NCBI RefSeq assembly: GCF_000425585.1
Contig: NZ_KE384399.1
Coordinates: 292,459 to 356,458, forward strand
Source: Terrimonas ferruginea DSM 30193
GTDB lineage: Bacteria; Bacteroidota; Bacteroidia; Chitinophagales; Chitinophagaceae
Reading direction: 5' to 3'
DNA length: 64,000 bases
Below, piece after piece: positions 6,510 through 19,753 of the stretch. The notes beneath the pieces were generated by a model, which did not search any database, had not been told where the DNA came from, and was given only the letters and a program-made list of their open reading frames with translations. Made by a program: the position numbers and the translations under genes. Each line of letters begins with the position of its first letter. Positions within the stretch are counted from its first letter, which is position 1.

Positions 6510-7763
6510 TCAGACCAGGTAACCAAACAAGGTATCATCCTTGTTGAGCTCAGTATACTGGATCTGTGATTCGTGGAGGTTGCGGATCAGGGTGTCGTAA
6601 TCAGCTTTTGCGCGCAATTCAATGCCCACCAATGCAGGACCATTTTCCTTGTTGGTTTTTTGCATGTATTCAAACCGGGTGATGTCATCGGTAGGGCCAA
6701 GCACTTTGTTGACAAATTCTTTCAATGCACCGGGGCGTTGTGCAAAGCTGATGAGGAAGTAGTGTTTCAATCCTTCATACTGAAGACTGCGTTCTTTGAT
6801 CTCCTGCATGCGGTCGATGTCGTTGTTGCTGCCACTGATGATGCAGACAATGTTTTTGCCTTTGATCTCACCGGCAAATTCGTCGAGCGCGGCGATGGAC
6901 ATGGCACCGGCGGGTTCTACCACAATGGCGTCTTCGTTATAGAGACGGAGAATGGTGGTGCAGATTTTTCCTTCAGGCACCAGCCGCATATCGTCGAGTA
7001 CGTCTTTGCAGATGGAGAAGGTGAGGTCACCGATACGTTTAACGGCCGCTCCGTCAACGAAACGTTCGATTTTATCGAGTACAACCGGATGGCCTGCAGC
7101 TAGTGCGGCTGTCATGGAGGGTGCACCTTCGGGCTCGAGGCCAATGATCCTGGTATCGGGAGAAAAAGTTTTGAGGTATGTACCCACACCGGCGCAGAGA
7201 CCTCCGCCACCGACAGGGACAAATACATAATCGATGGAAGAGAGGTCTTCCAGCATTTCAGCAGCTACCGTTGCCTGGCCTTCAATGATGCGGATGTCAT
7301 CAAAAGGAGGAATGAAAGTCATTTGCCGCTCTTCGGTAAAAGCTTTAGCTGCCGCGGCACAATCGTCGAATGTATCGCCGACCAGTTTTACTTCGATAAA
7401 ATTTTCACCAAACATGCGTGTCTGGTGAATTTTTTGATTAGGTGTGATCACCGGCATGAACACCACACCTTTCACCCCCAGTTTGCGGCAACTGAAGGCA
7501 AAGCCCTGCGCATGATTGCCGGCACTTGCACACACCACTCCCTGCTGCAGTTGTTCTTCCGGCAGACTGCTCATCATGTTGTAAGCACCTCTTAATTTAT
7601 AAGAGCGCACCACCTGCAGGTCTTCACGTTTCAGGTAAACATTGCATTGGTACTTGCGCGAAAGATTGAGGTTGAGTTGCAGCGGTGTGCGGGTAGCAAT
7701 ACCCTTCAGGCGTGCTGCAGCTTCGGCGAACTGAAAGGTAGGAGCTTCCCGGAGGGTTGACAT
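6510..7763 (-). CDS. ilvA: Threonine ammonia-lyase (threonine dehydratase)
   Basis: This PLP enzyme deaminates threonine to 2-oxobutanoate, the first committed step of isoleucine synthesis. Lys56 in SYKLRGA is the Schiff-base lysine, SAGNHAQG (about 80-88) binds substrate carboxylate, and GGGGLCAG binds the PLP phosphate. From about residue 325 there is one ACT-like regulatory domain, consistent with Ile/Val allosteric control. The length (417 aa) fits the single-ACT short form rather than the 510-residue E. coli form. It is the last gene of the ilv block and is separated from ilvC by a terminator-like hairpin that ends only about 20 nt before the start codon, so its expression may be partly uncoupled. 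Confidence 0.95.
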   Translation of the reverse strand: MSTLREAPTFQFAEAAARLKGIATRTPLQLNLNLSRKYQCNVYLKREDLQVVRSYKLRGAYNMMSSLPEEQLQQGVVCASAGNHAQGFAFSCRKLGVKGVVFMPVITPNQKIHQTRMFGENFIEVKLVGDTFDDCAAAAKAFTEERQMTFIPPFDDIRIIEGQATVAAEMLEDLSSIDYVFVPVGGGGLCAGVGTYLKTFSPDTRIIGLEPEGAPSMTAALAAGHPVVLDKIERFVDGAAVKRIGDLTFSICKDVLDDMRLVPEGKICTTILRLYNEDAIVVEPAGAMSIAALDEFAGEIKGKNIVCIISGSNNDIDRMQEIKERSLQYEGLKHYFLISFAQRPGALKEFVNKVLGPTDDITRFEYMQKTNKENGPALVGIELRAKADYDTLIRNLHESQIQYTELNKDDTLFGYLV

Positions 7764-7784: not shown

Positions 7785-7814
7785 AAAAAAAAGGGCCGGC
7801 CATATACCGGCCCC
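7785..7814 (-). terminator. Terminator-like hairpin between ilvC and ilvA
   Basis: GGGCCGG (7793-7799) pairs with CCGGCCC (7807-7813). Read on the minus strand the hairpin is followed by eight T (7785-7792), the form of an intrinsic terminator. It begins about 18 nt after the ilvC stop and ends about 20 nt before the ilvA start. It should end or reduce transcription from the ilv promoter before ilvA. Confidence 0.7.
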
Positions 7815-7831: not shown

Positions 7832-8956
7832 TTATCCTACAGATTCTGTTTTCTTCGTCTGTTGCAGGAATAATTCTTTGGTAGAAACGTCGGTAGCTGG
7901 CGCTTCGGACTGCTGGTTCTCCGGACGCAGGCTGCGAACGGTTCTGCCGGCCTGCCACATTTCGCTTTCACGCAGTTCTTTCAATTCTTCTTCCAGCTTC
8001 TCGCGGTAATCGGTTTTGCTGTTGCTGTCAATAGAACGTTGTGATTCTTTACCGGTTGCCACGCTTTCATACAATTCGCGGAATACCGGAGCAGTAGCAT
8101 CGCGGAATTTTTTCCACCAGTCGAGCGCACCACGCTGGGCGGTAGTAGAGCAGTTGGCATACATCCAGTCCATACCATTTTCAGCAACCAGCGGCATGAG
8201 TGATTGTGTCAGCTCTTCCACTGTTTCGTTGAATGCTTCGGAAGGAGAGTGTCCTTTATCACGCAGCACCTGGTATTGTGCGGCAAAGATGCCCTGGATG
8301 GCGCCCATGAGTGTACCACGTTCGCCGGTAAGATCACTGTATACTTCTTTTTTGAAGTCTGTTTCAAACAGGTAACCGCTTCCTACTGCGATACCCAGTG
8401 CCACCACGCGTTCTTTTGCTTTGCCGGTTGCATCCTGGAAGATCGCATAAGAGCTGTTGAGGCCACGGCCCTGCAGGAACATACGGCGGAGTGAAGTACC
8501 GCTTCCTTTAGGTGCCACGAGGAATACGTCCACATCTTTTGGAGGAACGATGCCGGTTTGTTCGTTGAACGTAATGCCAAAGCCATGAGAGAAGTAAAGG
8601 GCTTTGCCGGGTGTGAGGTGCTTCTGTACAGTAGGCCACAGTGCGATCTGCGCTGCATCGCTGAGCAGGTAACAAATGATGGTGCCTCTCTGCAGTGCTT
8701 CTTCGATCTCAAACAGGGTTTCGCCGGGAACAAATCCGTCAGCTATAGCCTTATCCCAGGTCTTGGAATTCTTACGCTGGCCAACGATTACGTTGATGCC
8801 ATTGTCTTTCTGGTTCAGCGCCTGTCCGGGGCCCTGTACACCATAACCGATAACGGCTACGGTTTCATTTTTTAAAACCTCCTGTGCTTTGCTCAGGGGG
8901 AATTCATCACGGGTTACCACGTTTTCTTCAACGCCGCCGAAATTTAACTTTGCCAT
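7832..8956 (-). CDS. ilvC: Ketol-acid reductoisomerase
   Basis: This enzyme isomerises and reduces 2-acetolactate or 2-aceto-2-hydroxybutyrate to the dihydroxy acids of the valine and isoleucine pathways, using NAD(P)H and Mg. The Rossmann motif GYGVQGPGQA lies at 38-47 and VGQRKNSKTW at about 58-67 is the cofactor-specificity loop. The acid-rich metal site appears in SDLTGERGTL, with the knotted C-terminal domain after it. The 374-residue protein has a polar Gln/Thr/Lys-rich tail of about 30 residues beyond the VRSLRPEN segment that classical short class I enzymes lack. It follows ilvN by 52 nt in the ilv operon. Confidence 0.96.
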   Translation of the reverse strand: MAKLNFGGVEENVVTRDEFPLSKAQEVLKNETVAVIGYGVQGPGQALNQKDNGINVIVGQRKNSKTWDKAIADGFVPGETLFEIEEALQRGTIICYLLSDAAQIALWPTVQKHLTPGKALYFSHGFGITFNEQTGIVPPKDVDVFLVAPKGSGTSLRRMFLQGRGLNSSYAIFQDATGKAKERVVALGIAVGSGYLFETDFKKEVYSDLTGERGTLMGAIQGIFAAQYQVLRDKGHSPSEAFNETVEELTQSLMPLVAENGMDWMYANCSTTAQRGALDWWKKFRDATAPVFRELYESVATGKESQRSIDSNSKTDYREKLEEELKELRESEMWQAGRTVRSLRPENQQSEAPATDVSTKELFLQQTKKTESVG

Positions 8957-9008: not shown

Positions 9009-9599
9009 TCACATGGTGAACACTTTTTCGTTTTGGTCAAGGAATTCATTTTCGATGGTGTCTTCACCGGGTTCGCGGTATTCAAACTCTTTGAGTTTTT
9101 CGTGGAAGCCTTCACTGTCTTTAATAATGGCTACCCGTCCGCTGCGGACAAATTCTATCAGTCCGTAAGGCTCAAGCACCTTAATTAAGCGGTCTGTTTC
9201 TTCGCGGTGGCCGGCTACTTCAAAGACGGTGTAGTCTTTGCGGATTACTACGGCATTGGCGCCGTATTGGCGGAGCAGGCGTTCTACTTTTACTTCAGCC
9301 TGTATGACCTCGGTCGGTACTTTGTATAATGCCAGTTCCTGCCATACGATCTCTTCCGCTGTGTTGTAATATGCTTTCAATACTTCCACCTGCTTTTCGA
9401 TCTGGCGGCAGAGTTTGCGTACCACTTCTTCCGTTTCATTGATCACGATGGTAAACCGGTGAACGCTGTCTACTTCGGAAGGAGAAGTATTCAGGCTGTC
9501 GATATTGATCTTTCTCCTGGAAAAAATGATCGCGATACGGTTCAGCAAACCGATCTGATTTTCCGTATAAACCGTGATCGTATATTCTGCTTTAGACAT
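9009..9599 (-). CDS. ilvN: Acetolactate synthase small (regulatory) subunit
   Basis: This is the regulatory partner of IlvB. An N-terminal ACT domain (about 5-80, TITVYTENQIGLLNRIA) should bind valine and mediate feedback inhibition. A C-terminal small-subunit domain (about 90-170) activates the large subunit. At 196 residues it is slightly longer than the usual 160-175, the extra being a polar acidic tail. It starts 25 nt after ilvB, the expected partner order. Confidence 0.94.
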   Translation of the reverse strand: MSKAEYTITVYTENQIGLLNRIAIIFSRRKINIDSLNTSPSEVDSVHRFTIVINETEEVVRKLCRQIEKQVEVLKAYYNTAEEIVWQELALYKVPTEVIQAEVKVERLLRQYGANAVVIRKDYTVFEVAGHREETDRLIKVLEPYGLIEFVRSGRVAIIKDSEGFHEKLKEFEYREPGEDTIENEFLDQNEKVFTM

Positions 9600-9624: not shown

Positions 9625-11373
9625 TTAAACTTCTTCTCTGGTTAATACGATTTCCGCTACGCCGCGACCCTGCGGTACCATCGGAAATACATTGTTTTCT
9701 TTTCCGGTCATTACTTCCAGCAGGAAACTGCCGGGATGATCCAGCATTTCTTTCAACGCCGTTCTCACTTCTTCTCTCTTCGAAATGCTTTTGCCGGAGA
9801 TGCCAAATCCCTTCGCCACCTGCACAAAGTCGGGGCTGGTAATGTTTACGAAAGAATAACGGTTCTCATGAAACAACTGCTGCCATTGGCGTACCATGCC
9901 GAGGAAGCTGTTATTGAGAATGAGAATTTTTACATGAGGTTTGAATTGCATGATGGTACCGAGTTCCTGCAAAGTCATCTGGAAACCACCATCGCCGATG
10001 ATGGCAACCGTAGTGCGCGAAGGATCTCCGTACGCCGCACCGATGGCTGCGGGTAATGCATAACCCATTGTACCCAGCCCACCACTCGTGATATTACTTT
10101 TCGACTTATTGTATTGCGCATAACGGCAGGCGACCATCTGGTGCTGTCCTACATCGGTGACAATGATGGCATCGCCGCCGGTGAGTTCGTTCAGTACGCG
10201 GATCACTTCACCCATGGTAAGCACATCGCCGGATGGATTGAGTTCTTCGCGGATGACTTTCTCTTCTTCTTTTTCGCGGCAATCGCGAAAGCGTTGCAGC
10301 CATTGCGGATATACTTTTTGTTCGATGAGTTCGGTGAGTGCGGGTAGTGTTTCTTTGCAGTCGCCCCATACAGGCACTGTTGCCTTCACGTTCTTATCGA
10401 TCTCTGCGGGATCAATGTCGAGATGAATCACTTTGGCCTGCTTGGCATATTTGTCGAGGCGACCGGTTACACGGTCGTCGAAACGCATGCCTATGGCAAT
10501 GAGCACATCGCATTCATTAGTGAGCAGGTTGGGGCCGTAGTTGCCGTGCATGCCCAGCATACCAACACCCAGCGGATGATCGGTAGGAATAGCGCTCATG
10601 CCCATGATGGTCCAGGCAGAAGGAATGCCGGCTTTTTCAATAAACTGGCGGAATTCTTTTTCTGCTTTTCCCAGTATCACACCCTGACCAAATACAACGA
10701 AAGGACGTTCCGCGGCATTGATCAATTTGGCCGCTTCTTCAATGTACTCTTTGCGCACGATCGGTTTGGGGCGGTAGCTGCGGATATGATTGCAGGGCGT
10801 GTAACCGGTATAATCGAACAACTGCATCTGTGCATTCTTGGTAATGTCGATCAACACCGGGCCGGGACGGCCGCTGCGCGCGATATAAAAAGCTTTCGCC
10901 AATACAGAAGGAATTTCCGTGGCATCCGTTACCTGGTAGTTCCACTTGGTTACCGGTGTGGTGATATTGATCACGTCTGTTTCCTGGAATGCATCGGTGC
11001 CGAGCAGGTGTGCGAATACCTGACCCGTGATACATACGAGGGGGGTAGAATCGATCTGTGCATCGGCAAGACCTGTTACGAGGTTGGTGGCACCGGGTCC
11101 GCTTGTGGCGAACACCACTCCTACATCGCCCGAGGCGCGTGCATAACCCTGTGCGGCATGAATGGCCCCCTGTTCGTGGCGGACCAGTATATGACGGAGC
11201 TTTTCATTGTAATCATACAGCGCATCATAGATCGGCATGATGGCACCACCGGGATAACCAAAAATGGTATCCACCTTTTCAGCCAGCAATGCTTCCAATA
11301 CCGCAACCGATCCGGATACGGATTGAGCGGTGCTGTTTGTCGGGGCTTCCTTTGTACTTGCTAACGTTTCCAT
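9625..11373 (-). CDS. ilvB: Acetolactate synthase large (catalytic) subunit
   Basis: This ThDP enzyme condenses two pyruvates, or pyruvate and 2-oxobutanoate, to acetohydroxy acids. The catalytic Glu is in RHEQGAIHAAQGYAR (about 65-79). GATNLVTGLADA and the central FAD-binding domain are present. The ThDP motif runs from GDGGFQMT to the NNSFLGM segment near 470-500. The length of 582 fits the family, with about 20 extra Ser/Thr-rich N-terminal residues before the conserved GSVAVLEAL. It lies 36 nt after ilvD and 25 nt before ilvN. Confidence 0.97.
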   Translation of the reverse strand: METLASTKEAPTNSTAQSVSGSVAVLEALLAEKVDTIFGYPGGAIMPIYDALYDYNEKLRHILVRHEQGAIHAAQGYARASGDVGVVFATSGPGATNLVTGLADAQIDSTPLVCITGQVFAHLLGTDAFQETDVINITTPVTKWNYQVTDATEIPSVLAKAFYIARSGRPGPVLIDITKNAQMQLFDYTGYTPCNHIRSYRPKPIVRKEYIEEAAKLINAAERPFVVFGQGVILGKAEKEFRQFIEKAGIPSAWTIMGMSAIPTDHPLGVGMLGMHGNYGPNLLTNECDVLIAIGMRFDDRVTGRLDKYAKQAKVIHLDIDPAEIDKNVKATVPVWGDCKETLPALTELIEQKVYPQWLQRFRDCREKEEEKVIREELNPSGDVLTMGEVIRVLNELTGGDAIIVTDVGQHQMVACRYAQYNKSKSNITSGGLGTMGYALPAAIGAAYGDPSRTTVAIIGDGGFQMTLQELGTIMQFKPHVKILILNNSFLGMVRQWQQLFHENRYSFVNITSPDFVQVAKGFGISGKSISKREEVRTALKEMLDHPGSFLLEVMTGKENNVFPMVPQGRGVAEIVLTREEV

Positions 11374-11409: not shown

Positions 11410-13092
11410 TTACAACTCGTCTGTTACGCAACCAGCTGCTGCATTTTTAACGGAGAGAGCATATTTATACAAAACACCTTTGTTCACTTTGAGTGACGGT
11501 TGTTTCCATGCGGTACGCCGGCGAGCTATTTCTTCATCCGGCACTTTCAAATTGATTGTGTTGGTAGCCGCATCGATTTCGATAATATCATCATCCTGTA
11601 CCAATGCAATCAATCCGCCTTCGTGTGCTTCGGGTGTGATATGTCCTACCACAAAACCGTGTGTGCCGCCGCTGAAGCGGCCGTCGGTGATCAGGGCTAC
11701 TGATTTACCCAGACCTGCACCGATGATGGCAGAAGTAGGTTTCAGCATTTCAGGCATGCCTGGTGCACCTTTAGGACCTTCGTATTGAATCACTACCACA
11801 TCGCCGGGTTTGATCACGCCTGACTGAATACCTTCGATCAATTTCTTTTCGCCCTGGAATACGCGTGCCGGGCCAACGAAACGTTCTCCTTCTTTACCGG
11901 AAATTTTTGCCACGCTGCCACCTTCGGCGAGATTGCCGTAAAGGATTTGCAGGTGTCCTTTTTCCTTAACAGGATTGGAAAGCGGGCGAACGATATCCTG
12001 GGTTTCAAAGTTGAGCGGTTCAATACCGGCGAGGTTTTCCGCTACGGTTTTACCGGTAACGGTGAGACAATCGCCGTGCAGCAAACCTTCGTTGAGCAGG
12101 TATTTCATTACGGCAGGAGTGCCACCGTGCTGATGAAGGTCCTGCATCAGGTACTTACCGCTCGGTTTGAAATCGGCGAGTACAGGTGTTGTGTCGCTCA
12201 TGCGCTGAAAATCGTCCTGTGTTATTTCAACGCCGACGCTTTTACCGATAGCGATGAAATGTAAAACGGCATTCGTGCTTCCTCCGAGAACAACGATCAC
12301 GCGAAGTGCATTTTCAAATGCTTTGCGTGTCATGATATCGGAAGGTTTGATATCTTTTTCCAGCAGGATACGGATGTACTTGCCGGCTTCAATGCATTCT
12401 TCTTCTTTCTCTTTGCTGACAGCGGGGTTGGAAGAAGAGTAGGGTAAGCTCATGCCCAGTGCTTCGATGGCGCTGGCCATGGTATTGGCGGTGTACATAC
12501 CACCGCAGGCGCCGGCACCGGGACAGGTATGTTTTACGATATTCTTAAAATCTTCGGGACTCAAAGTGCCTGCGATCTTTTGTCCCAGTGCTTCAAAAGA
12601 AGAAACGATGTTCAGTTCCTGTCCCTTGTAATGACCGGGAGCAATGGTGCCGCCATACACCATGATGGAAGGGCGGTCGAGGCGGCCCATCGCCATAATG
12701 GAACCGGGCATATTTTTGTCGCAACCCGGAATAGCGATCAAGCCATCGTAATACTGTCCTCCGCAGATTGCTTCGATGGAATCGGCAATGATATCGCGGC
12801 TTACGAGCGAATAGCGCATACCGTCGGTACCGTTGCTCATGCCATCGCTCACGCCGATGGTATTGAAAATAAGTCCGACCAGTTCGGAATCCCATACACC
12901 TTTCTTCACGTGACGTGCGAGATCGTTGAGGTGCATGTTGCAGGTATTGCCATCATAGCCCATGCTGCAAATGCCGACCTGCGCTTTCTGCATGTCTTCA
13001 TCGGTGAGACCGATACCATAGAGCATGGCTTGCGCGGCAGGTTGTGTTTCGTCCTGGGTGAAGGTTTTGGAGTATTTGTTTAATTCAGCCAT
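11410..13092 (-). CDS. ilvD: Dihydroxy-acid dehydratase
   Basis: This Fe-S enzyme dehydrates dihydroxy acids to 2-oxoisovalerate and 3-methyl-2-oxopentanoate. Cluster cysteines are visible in [20 protein letters not shown] and [15 protein letters not shown]. The protein is about 560 residues from the ATG at 13092. A TTG seven codons upstream would extend it into a run of TTTTGA-like heptamers, so I prefer the ATG, which is preceded by an A-rich stretch typical of Bacteroidota translation starts. It follows ilvE by 108 nt of repeat-like spacer. Confidence 0.96.
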
Positions 13093-13215
13093 TTTTTTTA
13101 ATTCAAAAGTCAAAAATCAAAAGTGTCAATCTTCAATCGTGAATGGTCATCCCGAAGCCTCGGGAGAGAATCGTCAATAAGTCAATGATCAATCTAATTT
13201 TCAAATCGTCAAATT
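13093..13215. repeat. Heptamer-rich spacer between ilvE and ilvD
   Basis: The 108-nt spacer and its edges consist of degenerate 7-bp units. On the minus strand CTTTTGA, TTTTTGA and CTTTTGA run directly up to the ilvD start. On the plus strand TTCAAAT/TCGTCAA-type units run at 13198-13220 and overlap the ilvE 3' end. Between them is a small hairpin CCCGA/TCGGG (13152-13166). The same units occur before leuC and at 40.0-40.1 kb. Confidence 0.6.
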
Positions 13216-14097
13216 TTCAAATTGCACGTGTGGAAGTTCTCTCACACGTGCCGTGTACGCTTTCTGCAGCATCGCGCTTAATGACTCTTCCCAGTCGAGG
13301 CGGAAAGGCACATCATCAAGGGAGGCGAGGGCTACTATTTCGGCGGCCGTGCCACAGAAGAAGCCGGCATCGGTGCCGCGCATTTCTTCCGGTGTAAATA
13401 ATTTTTCTTCTACGGGAATATTAAACTCCTGGCAAAGCTCCAGCACTGTTGCGCGGGTGATGCCCGGAAGAATACTTCCCAATGGCGGCGTATACAATAC
13501 GCCATCGTTTTCATAGAAGATATTGGCGCCGGAACTTTCGGCCACATAGCCTTCGCTGTCGAGCACCAGCGCTTCATCATAACCTTTGTCACGCGCTTCC
13601 TGGCAGGCAAGTATCGAGTTTACATAGTGTCCGCTCACTTTGGCTTCTACATGAAAAGCTTTCGGATTGGGACGAGCATAGGAGGAGGTCATGATACGCA
13701 TCTTGTTACTCATGTAACCATTGGTCCATTCCCATGCTTCGATGGCGAGAAAAGATTCCCTGCCTTTCGATAAGGCCATGTTGGGCGAGCAAAGCACGAT
13801 GGGGCGTACATACGCATCCGTAAAGCCGTTGCGGGCAAGCGTTTCATACGTCAGGTCTACGAGTTGCTGCGTGGTGTAGGCAAACGGCATCTTCATGTAT
13901 TCCGCTGACCGGCGAAGCCGGTCGTAATGTTCTTCTCCTTTGAACAGGCGTGTACCACCCGCAACAGGATAAGAGCGGATGCCTTCAAAAACAGCATAGC
14001 CATAATGCAGGGACTGGCTGTAGAGGTCGGTCTTTGCTTCTGCCGCTTTTACAAAGCTTCCGTTGAAATAGATGATCGTTTGCTCGTTGTAATACAT
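13201..14097 (-). CDS. ilvE: Branched-chain amino acid aminotransferase
   Basis: This fold-type IV PLP enzyme transfers the amino group of glutamate to the three branched-chain 2-oxo acids, the last step of Ile, Val and Leu synthesis. The Schiff-base lysine is in EAKVSGHYVNS, followed by the characteristic GYDEALVLDSEGYVAESSGANIF (split by conserved Glu and Asn residues). The 298-residue length is normal. It is the first structural gene of the ilv operon, and its ATG lies only 23 nt downstream of the attenuator terminator, so its transcription should depend on readthrough there. Confidence 0.96.
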   Translation of the reverse strand: MYYNEQTIIYFNGSFVKAAEAKTDLYSQSLHYGYAVFEGIRSYPVAGGTRLFKGEEHYDRLRRSAEYMKMPFAYTTQQLVDLTYETLARNGFTDAYVRPIVLCSPNMALSKGRESFLAIEAWEWTNGYMSNKMRIMTSSYARPNPKAFHVEAKVSGHYVNSILACQEARDKGYDEALVLDSEGYVAESSGANIFYENDGVLYTPPLGSILPGITRATVLELCQEFNIPVEEKLFTPEEMRGTDAGFFCGTAAEIVALASLDDVPFRLDWEESLSAMLQKAYTARVRELPHVQFENLTI

Positions 14098-14120: not shown

Positions 14121-14152
14121 AAAAAAAGACCCGCCTTTTGGAGGCGGGTCTT
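14121..14152 (-). terminator. ilv attenuator terminator
   Basis: On the minus strand AGACCCGCC (from 14151-14143) pairs with GGCGGGTCT (14135-14127), a 9-bp G+C-rich stem with a short loop, followed by a seven-T tract (14121-14127). It lies 19 nt after the leader-peptide stop and 23 nt before ilvE. Its 5' arm overlaps the CCGCCTCC that can alternatively pair with leader codons 28-30. Confidence 0.9.
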
Positions 14153-14191
14153 CGTATTTTTTTGAATTCTTTATATACTGAGTCCACCTCC
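14140..14191 (-). promoter_or_regulatory. Candidate antiterminator pairing of the ilv attenuator
   Basis: Minus-strand GGAGGTGG (14191-14184), inside the Gly28-Gly30 codons of the leader peptide, can pair over eight bases (one G-U) with CCGCCTCC (14147-14140), which includes most of the 5' arm of the terminator. The two structures exclude each other. A ribosome stalled at the Ile/Val codons leaves GGAGGTGG free and would favour readthrough. A ribosome that reaches the stop codon covers it and would favour termination. The pairing is read directly from the sequence; the mechanism is inferred from classical attenuators. Confidence 0.75.
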
Positions 14192-14272
14192 GTGCGTTGC
14201 AGGAATAATAATCACCACCACAATAATAATGGCATTGATGACAGTGTTCATATTAATTCCGCGTGATTGCAT
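14171..14272 (-). CDS. ilv leader peptide (attenuator control peptide)
   Basis: This is a 33-codon ORF immediately upstream of the ilvE terminator. Residues 15-23 read IIIVVVIII (codons ATT ATT ATT GTG GTG GTG ATT ATT ATT, 14230-14204). Val11, Ile12, Leu31 and Ile33 add further control codons. The stop TAA is at 14173-14171. An internal ATG at 14251 (codon 8) could be the true start, giving 26 residues; a weak GGA lies just before it. A nine-codon run of the pathway's own end products, followed by mutually exclusive antiterminator and terminator stems, is the hallmark of ribosome-mediated attenuation as known for ilv operons of Gammaproteobacteria. The peptide itself should have no other function. 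Confidence 0.88.
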   Translation of the reverse strand: MQSRGINMNTVINAIIIVVVIIIPATHGGGLSI

Positions 14273-14310
14273 GAAGGATTGTTGTTACGGTAAATGTACA
14301 ACCTTCATGC
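14269..14310 (-). promoter_or_regulatory. Possible ilv promoter with flanking inverted repeat
   Basis: Minus-strand TACATTTA (14298-14291) resembles the Bacteroidota -7 box TAnnTTTG and would start transcription near 14284, just ahead of the leader ORF. It is flanked by perfect 9-bp arms, GCATGAAGG (plus strand 14269-14277) and CCTTCATGC (14302-14310). These could be an operator, or could fold if transcription begins further upstream. No clear -33 TTTG is visible, so the promoter call is tentative. Confidence 0.35.
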
Positions 14311-14334
14311 TATAAAAAAGAACTTCTAAGTTTT

Positions 14335-14389: not shown

Positions 14390-15505
14390 TTAGATGATCG
14401 TGGATTTTCTCAGTTCGATGTTTTCACTTTTCACCGAACCCGGAATCCTGCCGCTTACATAGTCGCTGATCAGTTCGCCGAGGGTTGAAGTGAAATAGAA
14501 ATTAACCGGATCGATATCTTTTGTTACGAAACCATGCGTCAGTGTCCAGTTCACCGCTTCGCGCACGATGGCTGCTTCATCGGACAAACCGAAATGATCG
14601 AGCAACATGGCGGCGGAGAGGATAGAGCCAAGCGGATTGGCAATGTCTTTTCCGGCGGCCTGCGGATAGGAACCGTGAATCGGTTCAAACAACGCGGAAC
14701 CATTACCGATGGAAGCCGAGGGCAACAGACCGAGTGAGCCGGTGATTACGCTGGCTTCATCACTGATGATGTCGCCAAACATATTTTCCGTCAGGATCAC
14801 ATCAAATTGTTTCGGATTGAGAATGATCTGCATTGCGGCGTTATCTACAAACAGGAAATCCAGTTCCACGTCTGCATAGCCGGCAGCGATCTCTTTCACC
14901 ACTTTACGCCAGAGACGCGAAGTTTCCAATACGTTCGCTTTATCGACGAGTGTCAGTTTCTTTCTTCTTTTCTGCGCAGCCTGGAAGGCGAGATGTGCAA
15001 TTCGGCTGATTTCCTCCGCAGCGTAAACGCAATCATCGGAAGCTTGTGTGCCTTCGGCATTCAATTCTTTTTTACCAAAATATATTCCGCCGGTCAGTTC
15101 GCGGTAGATCACGAAGTCGACGCCTTCAACATTTTTTTGCTTCAGGGGAGAGAGGTGATGCAATGCCGGATAAGTCGTTACCGGGCGCAGGTTGGCGAAG
15201 AGCTGCAATGATTTTCGCAGGCGCAGCAGTCCCTGTTCGGGACGCACTTTGGCGGTAGGATCATTGTCATATTTGGGATGGCCGATGGCGCCGAATAAAA
15301 TGGCGTCGCTGGCAAGACAGACCTCTATCGTTTCATCAGGTAAAGGATTACCTGTTTTGTCGATGGCATCTGCGCCCATGAGACAGTAAGTGTAGTCGAA
15401 TTGGTGATTGTAGGTTTCGGCTATGGCATCCAATACGCGTACAGCCTGCCTGGTTACTTCCGGTCCTATTCCGTCGCCTTCTATAATTGCTATATTCTTT
15501 TCCAT
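14390..15505 (-). CDS. leuB: 3-isopropylmalate dehydrogenase
   Basis: This enzyme oxidatively decarboxylates 3-isopropylmalate to 2-oxoisocaproate with NAD. The protein (371 aa) starts IAIIEGDGIGPEV and contains LLRLRKSLQLFANLRP, the substrate-arginine region, as well as the Mg-binding Asp in the SDEASV region. The open frame extends 93 codons upstream into the ABC gene, but the conserved family N-terminus begins at the ATG at 15505, 20 nt after the ABC stop. It is the last gene of the leu operon. Confidence 0.96.
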   Translation of the reverse strand: MEKNIAIIEGDGIGPEVTRQAVRVLDAIAETYNHQFDYTYCLMGADAIDKTGNPLPDETIEVCLASDAILFGAIGHPKYDNDPTAKVRPEQGLLRLRKSLQLFANLRPVTTYPALHHLSPLKQKNVEGVDFVIYRELTGGIYFGKKELNAEGTQASDDCVYAAEEISRIAHLAFQAAQKRRKKLTLVDKANVLETSRLWRKVVKEIAAGYADVELDFLFVDNAAMQIILNPKQFDVILTENMFGDIISDEASVITGSLGLLPSASIGNGSALFEPIHGSYPQAAGKDIANPLGSILSAAMLLDHFGLSDEAAIVREAVNWTLTHGFVTKDIDPVNFYFTSTLGELISDYVSGRIPGSVKSENIELRKSTII

Positions 15506-15525: not shown

Positions 15526-16986
15526 TTACTGGGTGATGGCTTGTTTTCGTTGTACAGTGATTTTTTTTATTGTTCCGTTTTCGAGTTCTAGCAGGTTGTT
15601 GACCGAGGCCGGCACTTCGGTTGCGAAATGACTGATATAAAGCAGCGTTACATTGGTAGCGGCATGCAATTTTGTTACCAGGGAGAGGAATGCTTCTGAT
15701 TGTGCGGCATCCAGTCCCTGGCAGGGTTCGTCGAGTGCCAGTACTTTCGGTTGTTTTACCATGGCACGTGCAATCAATACCCAACGCTGTTGGCCGGCCG
15801 GTAGAGCCGATAAAGGTTGATTGGCTTTTTCTTCCAATCCCAATACCAGCATCCAGCGGAGTACGGCGTCATTTTGTTCTTGGCTGAGTTGGCGGTACAA
15901 ACCCATTACATCGAAAAAGCCGGAGCCAATGGCCTGGTAAACCGTGATGCCGGTATCGAAAAATTTATGCAGCTCAGGCGATACAAATCCCACTTGTTTT
16001 TTGATATCCCAGATGCTTTCACCCGAACCTCTGCGGCGTCCGAACAGCGTGATGTTTTGGGAGTAGGCTTGCGGATTGTCGGCCGTGATCAAACTCAGCA
16101 AAGTCGATTTGCCTGCGCCGTTGTGACCGCGGATCAGCCAGCCTTCACCATTGCGGACGGTCCAGTTGATATGTTGGAGCAGTTTCTTTTCACCATATTT
16201 GATGGTTACGTCCTGCATATCGATCACGGGTTCTTCGCTGTGTGCATGAACGGTGAGTGGCAGAAACTGCGTGGCAAAAACATGTTTGTTTTCCGTCGTT
16301 GGTTGATAGCTTTCGCTGGTTGTCCACTGTTGCAAACGTCCGTCGTTCAGCTCAGCGACCTGCGTAATGAATGACGGGAGAATATGGTGATCGGTGATGA
16401 TGACGAGTGTGGTGGTGGCACTGATCTTTTCCAATACTTCCAGCAATGTGTCGCGTGAACCGGTATCGAGACCTGTAAACGCCTGATCGATGATCAGCAC
16501 GTCAGGTTGTTGAAGCAGGTGGCGGATCAGTTGCAGTTTTTTCTGTTCGCCATTGGAAAGTTGGATCAGCGGGGCGTTGCGGCGATGGGCGAGCTGGAAT
16601 TGTTCCAGCCAATGATCGATGGCCGTTTGGTCTTTGCAAGTTTTGCCGAGAGAGGCTTCCACTGTTTCCACGTCTTCCGCATCGCAACTGTTGAAACGTT
16701 GCTGATAATAAAAATCGGAAACGTTGGAGTTGTTTTTCCATGTTTCCGATGGTGGCATATAAGCAATGCGGATCGATGCGGATTGATCCGGCTGCTGGTA
16801 TTCGATCTTACCCTGGCTGAACAACATCCCCGCCATTACACGTGCAAGTGAGGTTTTACCGCTACCGCTTTTACCGGTAATGGCCAGGTGATCGCCCGCA
16901 TTCAACCGGAAATTGATTCCGTCGAGAATGGTGCGGCCCGCCTGTACAACGCGTATATCGGATGCTATGATCGCTTCGGGTTTCAT
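15526..16986 (-). CDS. Tandem-domain ABC ATPase (PhrA/ModF-like) in the leu operon
   Basis: This 486-residue protein has two ABC nucleotide-binding domains and no membrane segment. Domain 1 has Walker A GKSGSGKT (about 38-45) and signature LSNGEQKK. Its Walker B reads VLIIDQAF, with Gln where the catalytic Glu is expected. Domain 2 has Walker [10 protein letters not shown], a degenerate signature (LPAGQQ) and intact Walker B VLALDEP. This layout matches E. coli ModF (PhrA), a soluble tandem ATPase of uncertain role. Its ATG overlaps the leuD stop in ATGA, so it is translationally coupled to leuD, and leuB follows after 20 nt. The position suggests co-regulation with leucine synthesis, but no function can be deduced from the sequence. 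Confidence 0.85.
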
Positions 16987-17589: not shown

Positions 17590-18348
17590 TTAATTTTTAA
17601 CGGCAATGATGCGCAGTCTTACGTAGTCTGCGTACCATGTTCCGTTTTGATAATAAACCGGCCGTAATTGTTCGGCAGCGCGGCGGATAACGGCTTCACG
17701 TGTTACCTGGTGCGTGTTACGGAAGAAAAATGATCCGAACATGTTGATCCAGTTCTGCATTCCTTCTTCACCTTCGAGCGGCGTCTTGCGGTCGAAGAAG
17801 GCGAGGCTGCGTACGGTGAATCCGTGTTTTTCCAATAAAGCACTGTAAGTGGCGGGAGAGGGAAAGAACCAGGACTCGGCAGGTTGTTCCTGCGAACCTG
17901 TTTCGATGAGTGCTTGTTTCACCGCATCTTCAATGTGTTTGATATTTCCCTGACCGCCCATTTCCAATACAAAACGTCCACCGGGACGCAGGCTTTTATA
18001 TACCGACTGTAATACGAGGTCTTGTTCCTGTATCCAGTGAAGCGTGGCATTGGAAAAAACGGCATCAAAGTTTCCGGGTAAGGAGAAAAAACGGGCGTCT
18101 TGTGTAAAGAAATCTATTTTGGGATAGCCTGCTTTTGCCTTGGTGATCATGTCTTCGGATGCATCGATACCTGTAACACGTGCGCCGTACTGACTGATCT
18201 GCGAGGTCAATGAGCCGGTGCCGCAACCCAGATCGAGAATGCGTTCGCCTTCTTCCGGACGAAGCCAGTTGATCAGGTCTTCGCCGTAGCGCGCCACGAA
18301 GCCGTGGTTGTTGTCGTACAGGTCAGTATTCCATCCGATAGCGGGCAT
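17590..18348 (-). CDS. Class I SAM methyltransferase, Tam-like, between leuC and leuD
   Basis: This 252-residue SAM-dependent methyltransferase has motif [13 protein letters not shown] (about 38-49), an acidic end of beta-2 in GIDASEDMI, and FSNATLHWI, which resembles the corresponding segment of trans-aconitate 2-methyltransferases. It starts 4 nt after the leuC stop, or overlaps leuC by 29 nt if an upstream ATG is used, and ends 10 nt before leuD. It is therefore embedded in the leu operon between the two isomerase subunits. Tam-type enzymes methylate small carboxylic acids; the yeast homologue Tmt1 is known to methylate 3-isopropylmalate. A substrate in the isopropylmalate family is my inference from context. 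A generic methyltransferase unrelated to leucine remains possible. Confidence 0.82.
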
Positions 18349-18352
18349 ATAA

Positions 18353-19753
18353 TTAGTTTTTCCAGTATTCGCGTACATCACCTACTTCCCCGGTGATGGC
18401 TGCGAGGGCCGCGGTCAACGGGCTTGCGAGAAAAGTGCGGGCATTGGGTCCCTGTCTTCCTTCGAAATTGCGGTTGCTGGTGCTGATGCAATATTTGCCC
18501 GCGGGAATTTTATCTTCATTCATACCGAGGCAGGCGCTGCAGCCGGGCTGGCGCAAAATGAAACCGGCCGCTTCGAATATTTTATCGATGCCTTCTTCGA
18601 TGGCTTGTTTCTCTACCTGCTTGCTTCCGGGTACGATCCATACTTCCACGCCGGGCGCTTTTTGTTTACCGTTTACAAAACCTGCTACGAGACGTAAGTC
18701 TTCGATGCGTGAATTGGTACAACTGCCGATGAACACATAATCGACTTTGGTGCCTTTGATGGCGGCGCCGGGTTGTAAGCCCATATAGGCAAGTGATTTT
18801 TCAAAAGAAGGTTTTTCTTTTTCCTCTACTTCGCCGAGGCCGGGAATATGTCCGCCGACACCAATACCCATTCCGGGGTTGGTACCGTAAGTAATCATCG
18901 GTTCGATGTCTTCGGCTTTGATATTGATCTCCGTGTCGAAGGCTGCTCCTTCATCGCTGAAAAGTGTTTGCCAGTAGGCTACGCTTTTTTCCCAATCTTC
19001 TCCCTGCGGTGCAAAGCGGCGTCCCTGTATGTAATCGAATGTTGTCTGGTCCGGTGCGATCATGCCGCAACGTGCACCCATTTCGATGCTCATGTTGCAG
19101 ATGGTCATGCGCGCTTCCATGGAAAGACTGCGGATAGCGGAACCGGCAAACTCCACAGCATAGCCTGTGGCACCGCTGGCGGTGATCTGTGCAAGAATAT
19201 AAAGTACGATGTCTTTGCTTACAACGCCATCGTTCAACTGTCCGTCGATGTTGATGCGCATCAGTTTTGGGCGGCTCTGCATCAGGCATTGTGTTGCCAG
19301 CACCATTTCCACTTCGCTGGTGCCGATGCCAAAGGCGATGGAACCGAAGGCGCCGTGTGTGGAAGTATGGCTGTCGCCGCAAACGATGGTCATGCCGGGT
19401 TGAGTGATGCCGAGTTCGGGACCGATCACGTGTACGATGCCCTGGAAGGGATGTCCGAGTCCGTATAACTCAATGCCATGTTCGGCACAATTCTTTTTCA
19501 ACGTGTCTACCTGTACACGGGAAAGTTCTTCCTTGATGGGAAGATGCTGATCGAGGGTAGGCACATTGTGATCGGCCGTGGCCACCACCTGGTTGGGGCG
19601 GAAAACTTTGATGCCTCTCTTGTTGAGTCCGTTGAAAGCCTGGGGGCTGGTTACTTCGTGGATGAAATGCCGGTCTATATAAAGAATGGAAGGACCTCCT
19701 TCGATGGTCTGCACCACGTGCTTCTCCCAAATCTTTTCAAATAAAGTCTTCAT
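18353..19753 (-). CDS. leuC: 3-isopropylmalate dehydratase large subunit
   Basis: This is the 4Fe-4S aconitase-family subunit of isopropylmalate isomerase. The motifs [19 protein letters not shown] (first cluster Cys) and [10 protein letters not shown] (the other two Cys) are intact. The protein is 466 residues from the ATG at 19753. A TTG three codons upstream is possible. It follows leuA after a 116-nt spacer made largely of TTTTGAC/TTTTGAA heptamers. Confidence 0.96.

Follow-up and report, generated by a model that had tools for sequence, protein, structure and literature searches.

A probable Ile/Val-dependent transcription attenuator upstream of the ilv operon of Terrimonas ferruginea, with counterparts across Bacteroidota

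The ilv locus and its leader

The analysed stretch of Terrimonas ferruginea DSM 30193 DNA (64,000 nt, referred to as the window) carries on its minus strand, in this order, leuB (3' end at 14390), promoter-like motifs, a leader ORF, a terminator and the genes ilvE-ilvD-ilvB-ilvN-ilvC-ilvA. By IlvE, the closest named relatives of this genome (G000) belong to the Chitinophagaceae. The features of the leader and the operon are as follows.

14309..14323, minus strand: upstream promoter-like element GTTCTTTTTT, putative; a GTTCTTTG/T-like sequence recurs before most family leaders
14291..14298, minus strand: candidate -7 element TACATTTA of the Bacteroidota TAnnTTTG type, putative
14269..14277, minus strand: segment 1, CCTTCATGC, across the leader start codon, pairing with GCACGGAGG (14195-14187) (MFE fold, species duplexes and swap tests)
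14171..14272, minus strand: leader ORF of 33 codons, MQSRGINMNTVINAIIIVVVIIIPATHGGGLSI (ORF translation; start backed by the conserved ATG spacing)
14204..14230, minus strand: control codons ATT3 GTG3 ATT3, encoding Ile3 Val3 Ile3 (sequence; Ile/Val run conserved in relatives)
14184..14191, minus strand: segment 2, the antiterminator 5' arm GGAGGTGG, inside Gly codons 28-30 (covariation)
14140..14147, minus strand: segment 3, CCGCCTCC, common to antiterminator and terminator (covariation)
14121..14153, minus strand: intrinsic terminator GAAGACCCGCCTCC AAAA GGCGGGTCTT plus T tract (folding and covariation)
13201..14097, minus strand: ilvE, branched-chain aminotransferase, the first controlled gene (NCBIfam TIGR01122)
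11410..13113, minus strand: ilvD, dihydroxy-acid dehydratase (gene annotation of the window, as for the other genes below)
9625..11373, minus strand: ilvB, acetolactate synthase large subunit
9009..9599, minus strand: ilvN, acetolactate synthase small subunit
7832..8956, minus strand: ilvC, ketol-acid reductoisomerase
7786..7813, minus strand: terminator-like hairpin between ilvC and ilvA, GGGCCGG...CCGGCCC T7 (sequence)
6510..7763, minus strand: ilvA, threonine ammonia-lyase

The first-pass annotation of this DNA had described a 33-codon ORF with three Ile, three Val and three Ile codons, an antiterminator pairing inside Gly codons 28-30 of that ORF, and a terminator with a seven-T tract ending 23 nt before ilvE, all of which are present. 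The Gly codons read GGA GGT GGA, the ilvE ATG is at 14097, and the terminator stem can be extended to 12 pairs by folding. As expected of an attenuator, the short leader ORF contains clustered codons for the amino acids of its own pathway. IIIVVVIII is the sole run of at least seven Ile/Val codons across the six frames of the window, in which about 0.0005 runs of nine such codons are expected by chance. The start is placed at the upstream ATG (14272), 14 codons before the run, and is backed by the relatives, where the usual distance from the ATG to the Ile/Val run is 39-51 nt. Outside the run, the leader peptides vary among relatives. The frame of segment 2 differs between them (GGGLSI; RGG in L024; REVV in L022) and the RNA sequence GGAGG is mostly kept, suggesting that RNA pairing, not protein function, is conserved.

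In most family members, a TAnnTTTG/TATATTCG-like element is located about 20-30 nt 5' of the leader ATG, with GTTCTTT further upstream; the counterparts of the -7 element in relatives are mostly TATATTTG/TATATTCG. The conserved place of these two elements suggests that the leader has its own transcription start and is not merely reached by readthrough from leuB. Transcription probably starts at about 14287-14286, and the predicted leader 5'UTR is about 10-18 nt in most family members. At the other end of the operon, ilvA would possibly be reached by readthrough past the ilvC/ilvA hairpin (7813-7786). The leuA-C-D-B cluster includes genes for a ModF-like ABC ATPase and a trans-aconitate/BioC-like methyltransferase (15526-16986 and 17590-18381, minus strand), and inspection by eye of the sequence upstream of leuA revealed no Leu leader.

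Three mutually exclusive helices

The antiterminator is formed by GGAGGTGG (14191-14184) and CCGCCTCC (14147-14140), with eight pairs including one G-U. The terminator hairpin spans 14153-14126 and is followed by T7 at 14127-14121, placing an intrinsic terminator, exclusive with the antiterminator, between the leader and the first gene. The full leader is more stable than shuffled sequences (z -2.75), and the terminator is its strongest stem. In a 48-sequence alignment, 92.9% of the cells of the terminator are paired and 8/10 of its pairs are changed on both sides; for the antiterminator, the values are 90.3% and 3/8. Compensatory changes, proposed earlier as a check on the two stems, are thus present in both among relatives.

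Pairing was further analysed with a swap test, in which the duplex energy of a species' own segments is compared with that of partners swapped from other species, register shifts being taken in; in the reversed-partner control, relatedness is retained and orientation is lost. Within the family, z was -7.9 for 1:2, -6.1 for 2:3 and -14.6 for 3:4, and +0.5 for 1:3, which is expected to be unpaired; the reversed-partner controls gave -1.5, -1.0 and -0.3. The 41 leaders without CCGCCTC still self-pair (2:3, z -9.3; control -2.5). For the phylum-wide 2:3 test, the reversed control was non-zero (z -4.9) because the lineages differ in composition, and weight is therefore put on the within-family test and the leaders without CCGCCTC.

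Two mutually exclusive stems had initially been described for this leader. Their exclusivity holds and both covary, but the count does not stand: there are three exclusive helices. The third, overlooked in the first-pass annotation, completes the classical 1:2 / 2:3 / 3:4 logic. The MFE fold of the window pairs CCUUCAUGC, which has the start codon inside, with GCACGGAGG, which has most of segment 2 inside. Across the family, the start-codon region and first codons are complementary to GGAGG and its preceding codons, with a species-specific sequence (for example, TTGAAGAA with TTCTTCAA in L010). The 1:2 swap test in the family gave z -7.9. Because this helix was found after looking at the data, it was re-tested on 26 loci of the same family with leader start regions unused before, held out though not phylogenetically independent, with a z of -5.6 (controls -0.4 and 0.0). 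Since the 1:2 complementarity covaries in the family, the region before the run likely forms a protector helix that holds the Ile/Val codons in its loop and is exclusive with the antiterminator. For family f24, from another lineage, the protector arm of the fold falls within the codon run, a trp-like arrangement, indicating that the start-codon placement of the protector is not universal.

Distribution in the family and phylum

Loss of the codon run with retention of the hairpin, named in the first-pass annotation as the outcome that would speak against an attenuator, is not the pattern among relatives. Among IlvE orthologues with at least 50% identity and readable upstream DNA from 54 family genomes, leader and terminator are kept in 50/54. 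All 50 leaders have an Ile/Val-rich short ORF with its stop about 39-63 nt before a hairpin-preceded T tract, and the family hairpin is usually CCCGCCTCC...GGCGGG. In the four exceptions, leuB abuts ilvE and the leader is absent there; one of these genomes (G005) has a leader elsewhere (L059). In another genome of the same genus (G004), only distant IlvE matches were found (best E 9.5e-21), and this ilvE therefore appears absent there.

A blind scan demanding both codon run and hairpin was passed by 74/80 ilvE loci of named genomes on the same strand versus 1/80 on the opposite strand, where the pairing cut-off was slightly stricter (13 vs 11; one same-strand match, L157, is below 13). These loci span Chryseobacterium, Epilithonimonas, Flavobacterium, Aequorivita, Pedobacter, Niastella, Cyclobacteriaceae and others. 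Niastella yeongjuensis (L213), a culturable relative, carries the same element. The 54-genome and 80-locus counts are not independent because some genomes are common to both sets. Upstream of ilvD, the blind scan of 60 loci gave 17 automatic matches, of which L143 and probably L090 look spurious by eye; genes other than ilvD often come first, which probably accounts for this low yield. In a genome from another family (L069, G431:C24), ilvE is preceded by a tandem pair of terminator-bearing Ile/Val leaders.

The covariance model of the family matched 58/396 genomes across the phylum at E <=0.01, the weaker matches including chance ones and the genes there being named by similarity or sequence reading. 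Among the matches are Ile/Val leaders ahead of ilvE, ilvN-like and ilvA genes and, in other genomes, Thr/Ile leaders before aspartokinase/homoserine-dehydrogenase-like (thrA-like) genes and His-rich leaders, in a different frame, before hisG-like genes. The antiterminator pairs differ by lineage, comprising GGAGGTGG/CCGCCTCC, CTGTGAGA/TCTCACAG, GTGGTGAG/CTCACCAC, AGGCGCT/AGCGCCT and GGGGCG/CGCCCC. The relatives in the phylum thus keep the switch with matching base-pair changes, supporting that the attenuator is real and widespread.

Similar leaders are found elsewhere in the T. ferruginea genome. The hisG leader is the His-rich MFNNTHIHHHFLHSRKP followed by a terminator (L153, G000:C9:121300-122600, about 769-822 of the reversed locus), and the trpE leader is MIQQCNIIWWWQTNSSGVM, with three Trp codons, followed by a terminator (L154, G000:C3:78500-79800, about 843-904 of the reversed locus). 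The leader codons match the product of the operon: Ile/Val before ilv, His before hisG and Trp before trpE. Upstream of thrA (L152, G000:C11:117800-119600) there is a Thr/Ile-rich frame ending GTITTTTIITIR, with a possible GTG start; no clear T-tract intrinsic terminator was seen upstream of this gene.

Proposed mechanism, alternatives and significance

The element is very probably a trp-type ribosome-mediated transcription attenuator governed by charged tRNA-Ile and tRNA-Val, a reading put forward in the first-pass annotation and supported here by conservation, by covarying helices and by the position of the codon run in a footprint model. We infer termination in vivo, dependence on charged tRNA and transcription-translation coupling as parts of this reading. 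A shortage of charged tRNA-Ile or tRNA-Val would stall the ribosome within IIIVVVIII, and segment 2 ahead of it would stay free to pair with the emerging segment 3; with 2:3 formed, no terminator would arise and the polymerase would enter ilvE-D-B-N-C. When both charged tRNAs are plentiful, the ribosome would reach the stop codon and cover segment 2, allowing 3:4 to pair and transcription to end at the T tract. On a leader that is free of ribosomes, or that the ribosome has left, 1:2 would pair, favouring the terminator and hiding the start site.

In the footprint model, RNA ahead of the ribosome is folded before segment 4 is made, with the leading edge assumed to be 13 nt past the start of the A-site codon. 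For stalls through the last Ile codon, the model leaves all eight 2:3 pairs of the window leader intact; stalls at the three codons that follow reduce them to 7, 3.9 and 0.1, and at the stop none is left. The family average is the same. A modelled stall in the run therefore frees segment 2 and a ribosome at the stop codon covers it, as an attenuator would need. The ribosome-free equilibrium fold up to segment 3 prefers 2:3 over 1:2, the latter being strong only until segment 3 is transcribed; 1:2 would thus protect only if formed first. Of the three helices, the terminator has the highest stability; the switch therefore has to be kinetic, needing coupled transcription and translation. In addition, stalling in the run places the ribosome in the 1:2 loop and leaves segment 1 uncovered, and helix 1:2 might therefore still compete during the stall. 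Because segment 1 stays unmasked in this way, antitermination could depend on initiation by a second ribosome behind the stalled one, so that the switch would read leader initiation and Ile/Val charging jointly; the conserved 39-51 nt from start to run are roughly room for two ribosomes, though we regard this extension as unlikely.

The hairpin could instead be a mere terminator of the upstream leuB operon, with the Ile/Val-rich ORF a chance or decaying frame; leuB does end upstream on the same strand (14390), and a terminator between two operons is ordinary. However, the hairpin adjoins ilvE about 240 nt past leuB, a promoter-like motif lies between leuB and the leader, and 50/54 orthologues keep the codon run, the stop and segment 2 together with the hairpin, with segments 2 and 3 covarying, making this explanation highly improbable. 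Equally improbable is that the ORF, whose Ile/Val-rich stretch is like a transmembrane segment, codes for a small, conserved and hydrophobic membrane protein that has a function of its own, the hairpin being incidental: the peptide is poorly conserved beyond the run, the frame of segment 2 shifts while its RNA sequence is retained, and the equivalent hisG and trpE leaders carry His or Trp instead.

The chance that a T-box, a metabolite riboswitch or a ppGpp-type ilv element, rather than leader translation, controls ilvE is close to nil. In other bacteria, ilv genes are under the control of RNAs of these kinds, and a ppGpp riboswitch at ilvB is mentioned in PMC10272879, but the short leader is wholly taken up by the ORF and three helices, and neither the window nor any of 18 related loci has an above-threshold match to an Rfam family, T-box included. 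Termination might also be decided mainly by general translation or leader initiation, sensed through 1:2, in place of Ile/Val charging, since this helix spans the start codon of the leader and shows strong covariation; the conserved identity of the Ile/Val codons and the coincidence of the run end with the footprint limit make this very unlikely.

The gammaproteobacterial ilvGMEDA, ilvBN and trpL leaders each combine a leader ORF rich in pathway codons, three exclusive helices and an intrinsic terminator before the first gene, and the proposed Ile/Val attenuator resembles such ilv/trp attenuators in all of these. It differs from them in that segment 1 is the leader start-codon region instead of the control-codon region, segment 2 lies within the last codons of the leader, mainly Ile and Val with little Leu would be sensed, and a Shine-Dalgarno sequence is not expected. 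Bacteroidota lack Shine-Dalgarno sequences (PMC6847099). The ilvBNC/ilvB-II motif of Corynebacterium glutamicum (PMC11857589, PMC10272879) likewise has a branched-chain leader peptide, three hairpins (H1/H2/H3) and a shielded leader start, H1 covering the leader translation start (PMC11857589). Its leader mRNA is nearly leaderless and its first gene is ilvB, whereas here a 5'UTR of about 10-18 nt is predicted and the first gene is ilvE; no sequence relation to the C. glutamicum ilvBNC attenuator was seen.

Within the phylum, attenuation has been predicted for Bacteroid-trp RF01692 (PMC2864571), also termed trp-leader-like (PMC6414381), which shares with the ilv element the presumed principle and an amino-acid operon. 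The RF01692 model had no match in the window or the whole genome, despite the WWW leader before trpE. For Flavobacterium psychrophilum, a transcriptomic study reports 'strong clues' of leader-peptide attenuation before amino-acid operons, a likeness in phylum and leader type, and its main text describes neither an ilv element nor helices or covariation (PMC9723704). In B. thetaiotaomicron, 5'UTRs bearing sORFs have been described (PMC7366714). The earlier statement that no such attenuator is known to be experimentally shown in this phylum agrees with the searchable literature, where no proven amino-acid attenuator was found, but leader-peptide attenuation had already been predicted there. The ilv element is a well-supported attenuator and, as far as could be checked, new as a described element; the type of regulator is already known.

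Classical attenuation requires a ribosome close behind RNA polymerase, and no direct demonstration of transcription-translation coupling in Bacteroidota was found in the openly readable literature. An Ile/Val attenuator found across the phylum, accompanied by His and Trp relatives in the same genome, would make the coupling question directly testable in genetically tractable genera such as Flavobacterium, and would suggest start-site, codon and helix mutants for the purpose. Specialist attention is most deserved by the protector helix at the start codon and by the spread of the element across the phylum. The attenuator would explain how branched-chain amino-acid synthesis is adjusted in a large group of bacteria from soil, water and other habitats.
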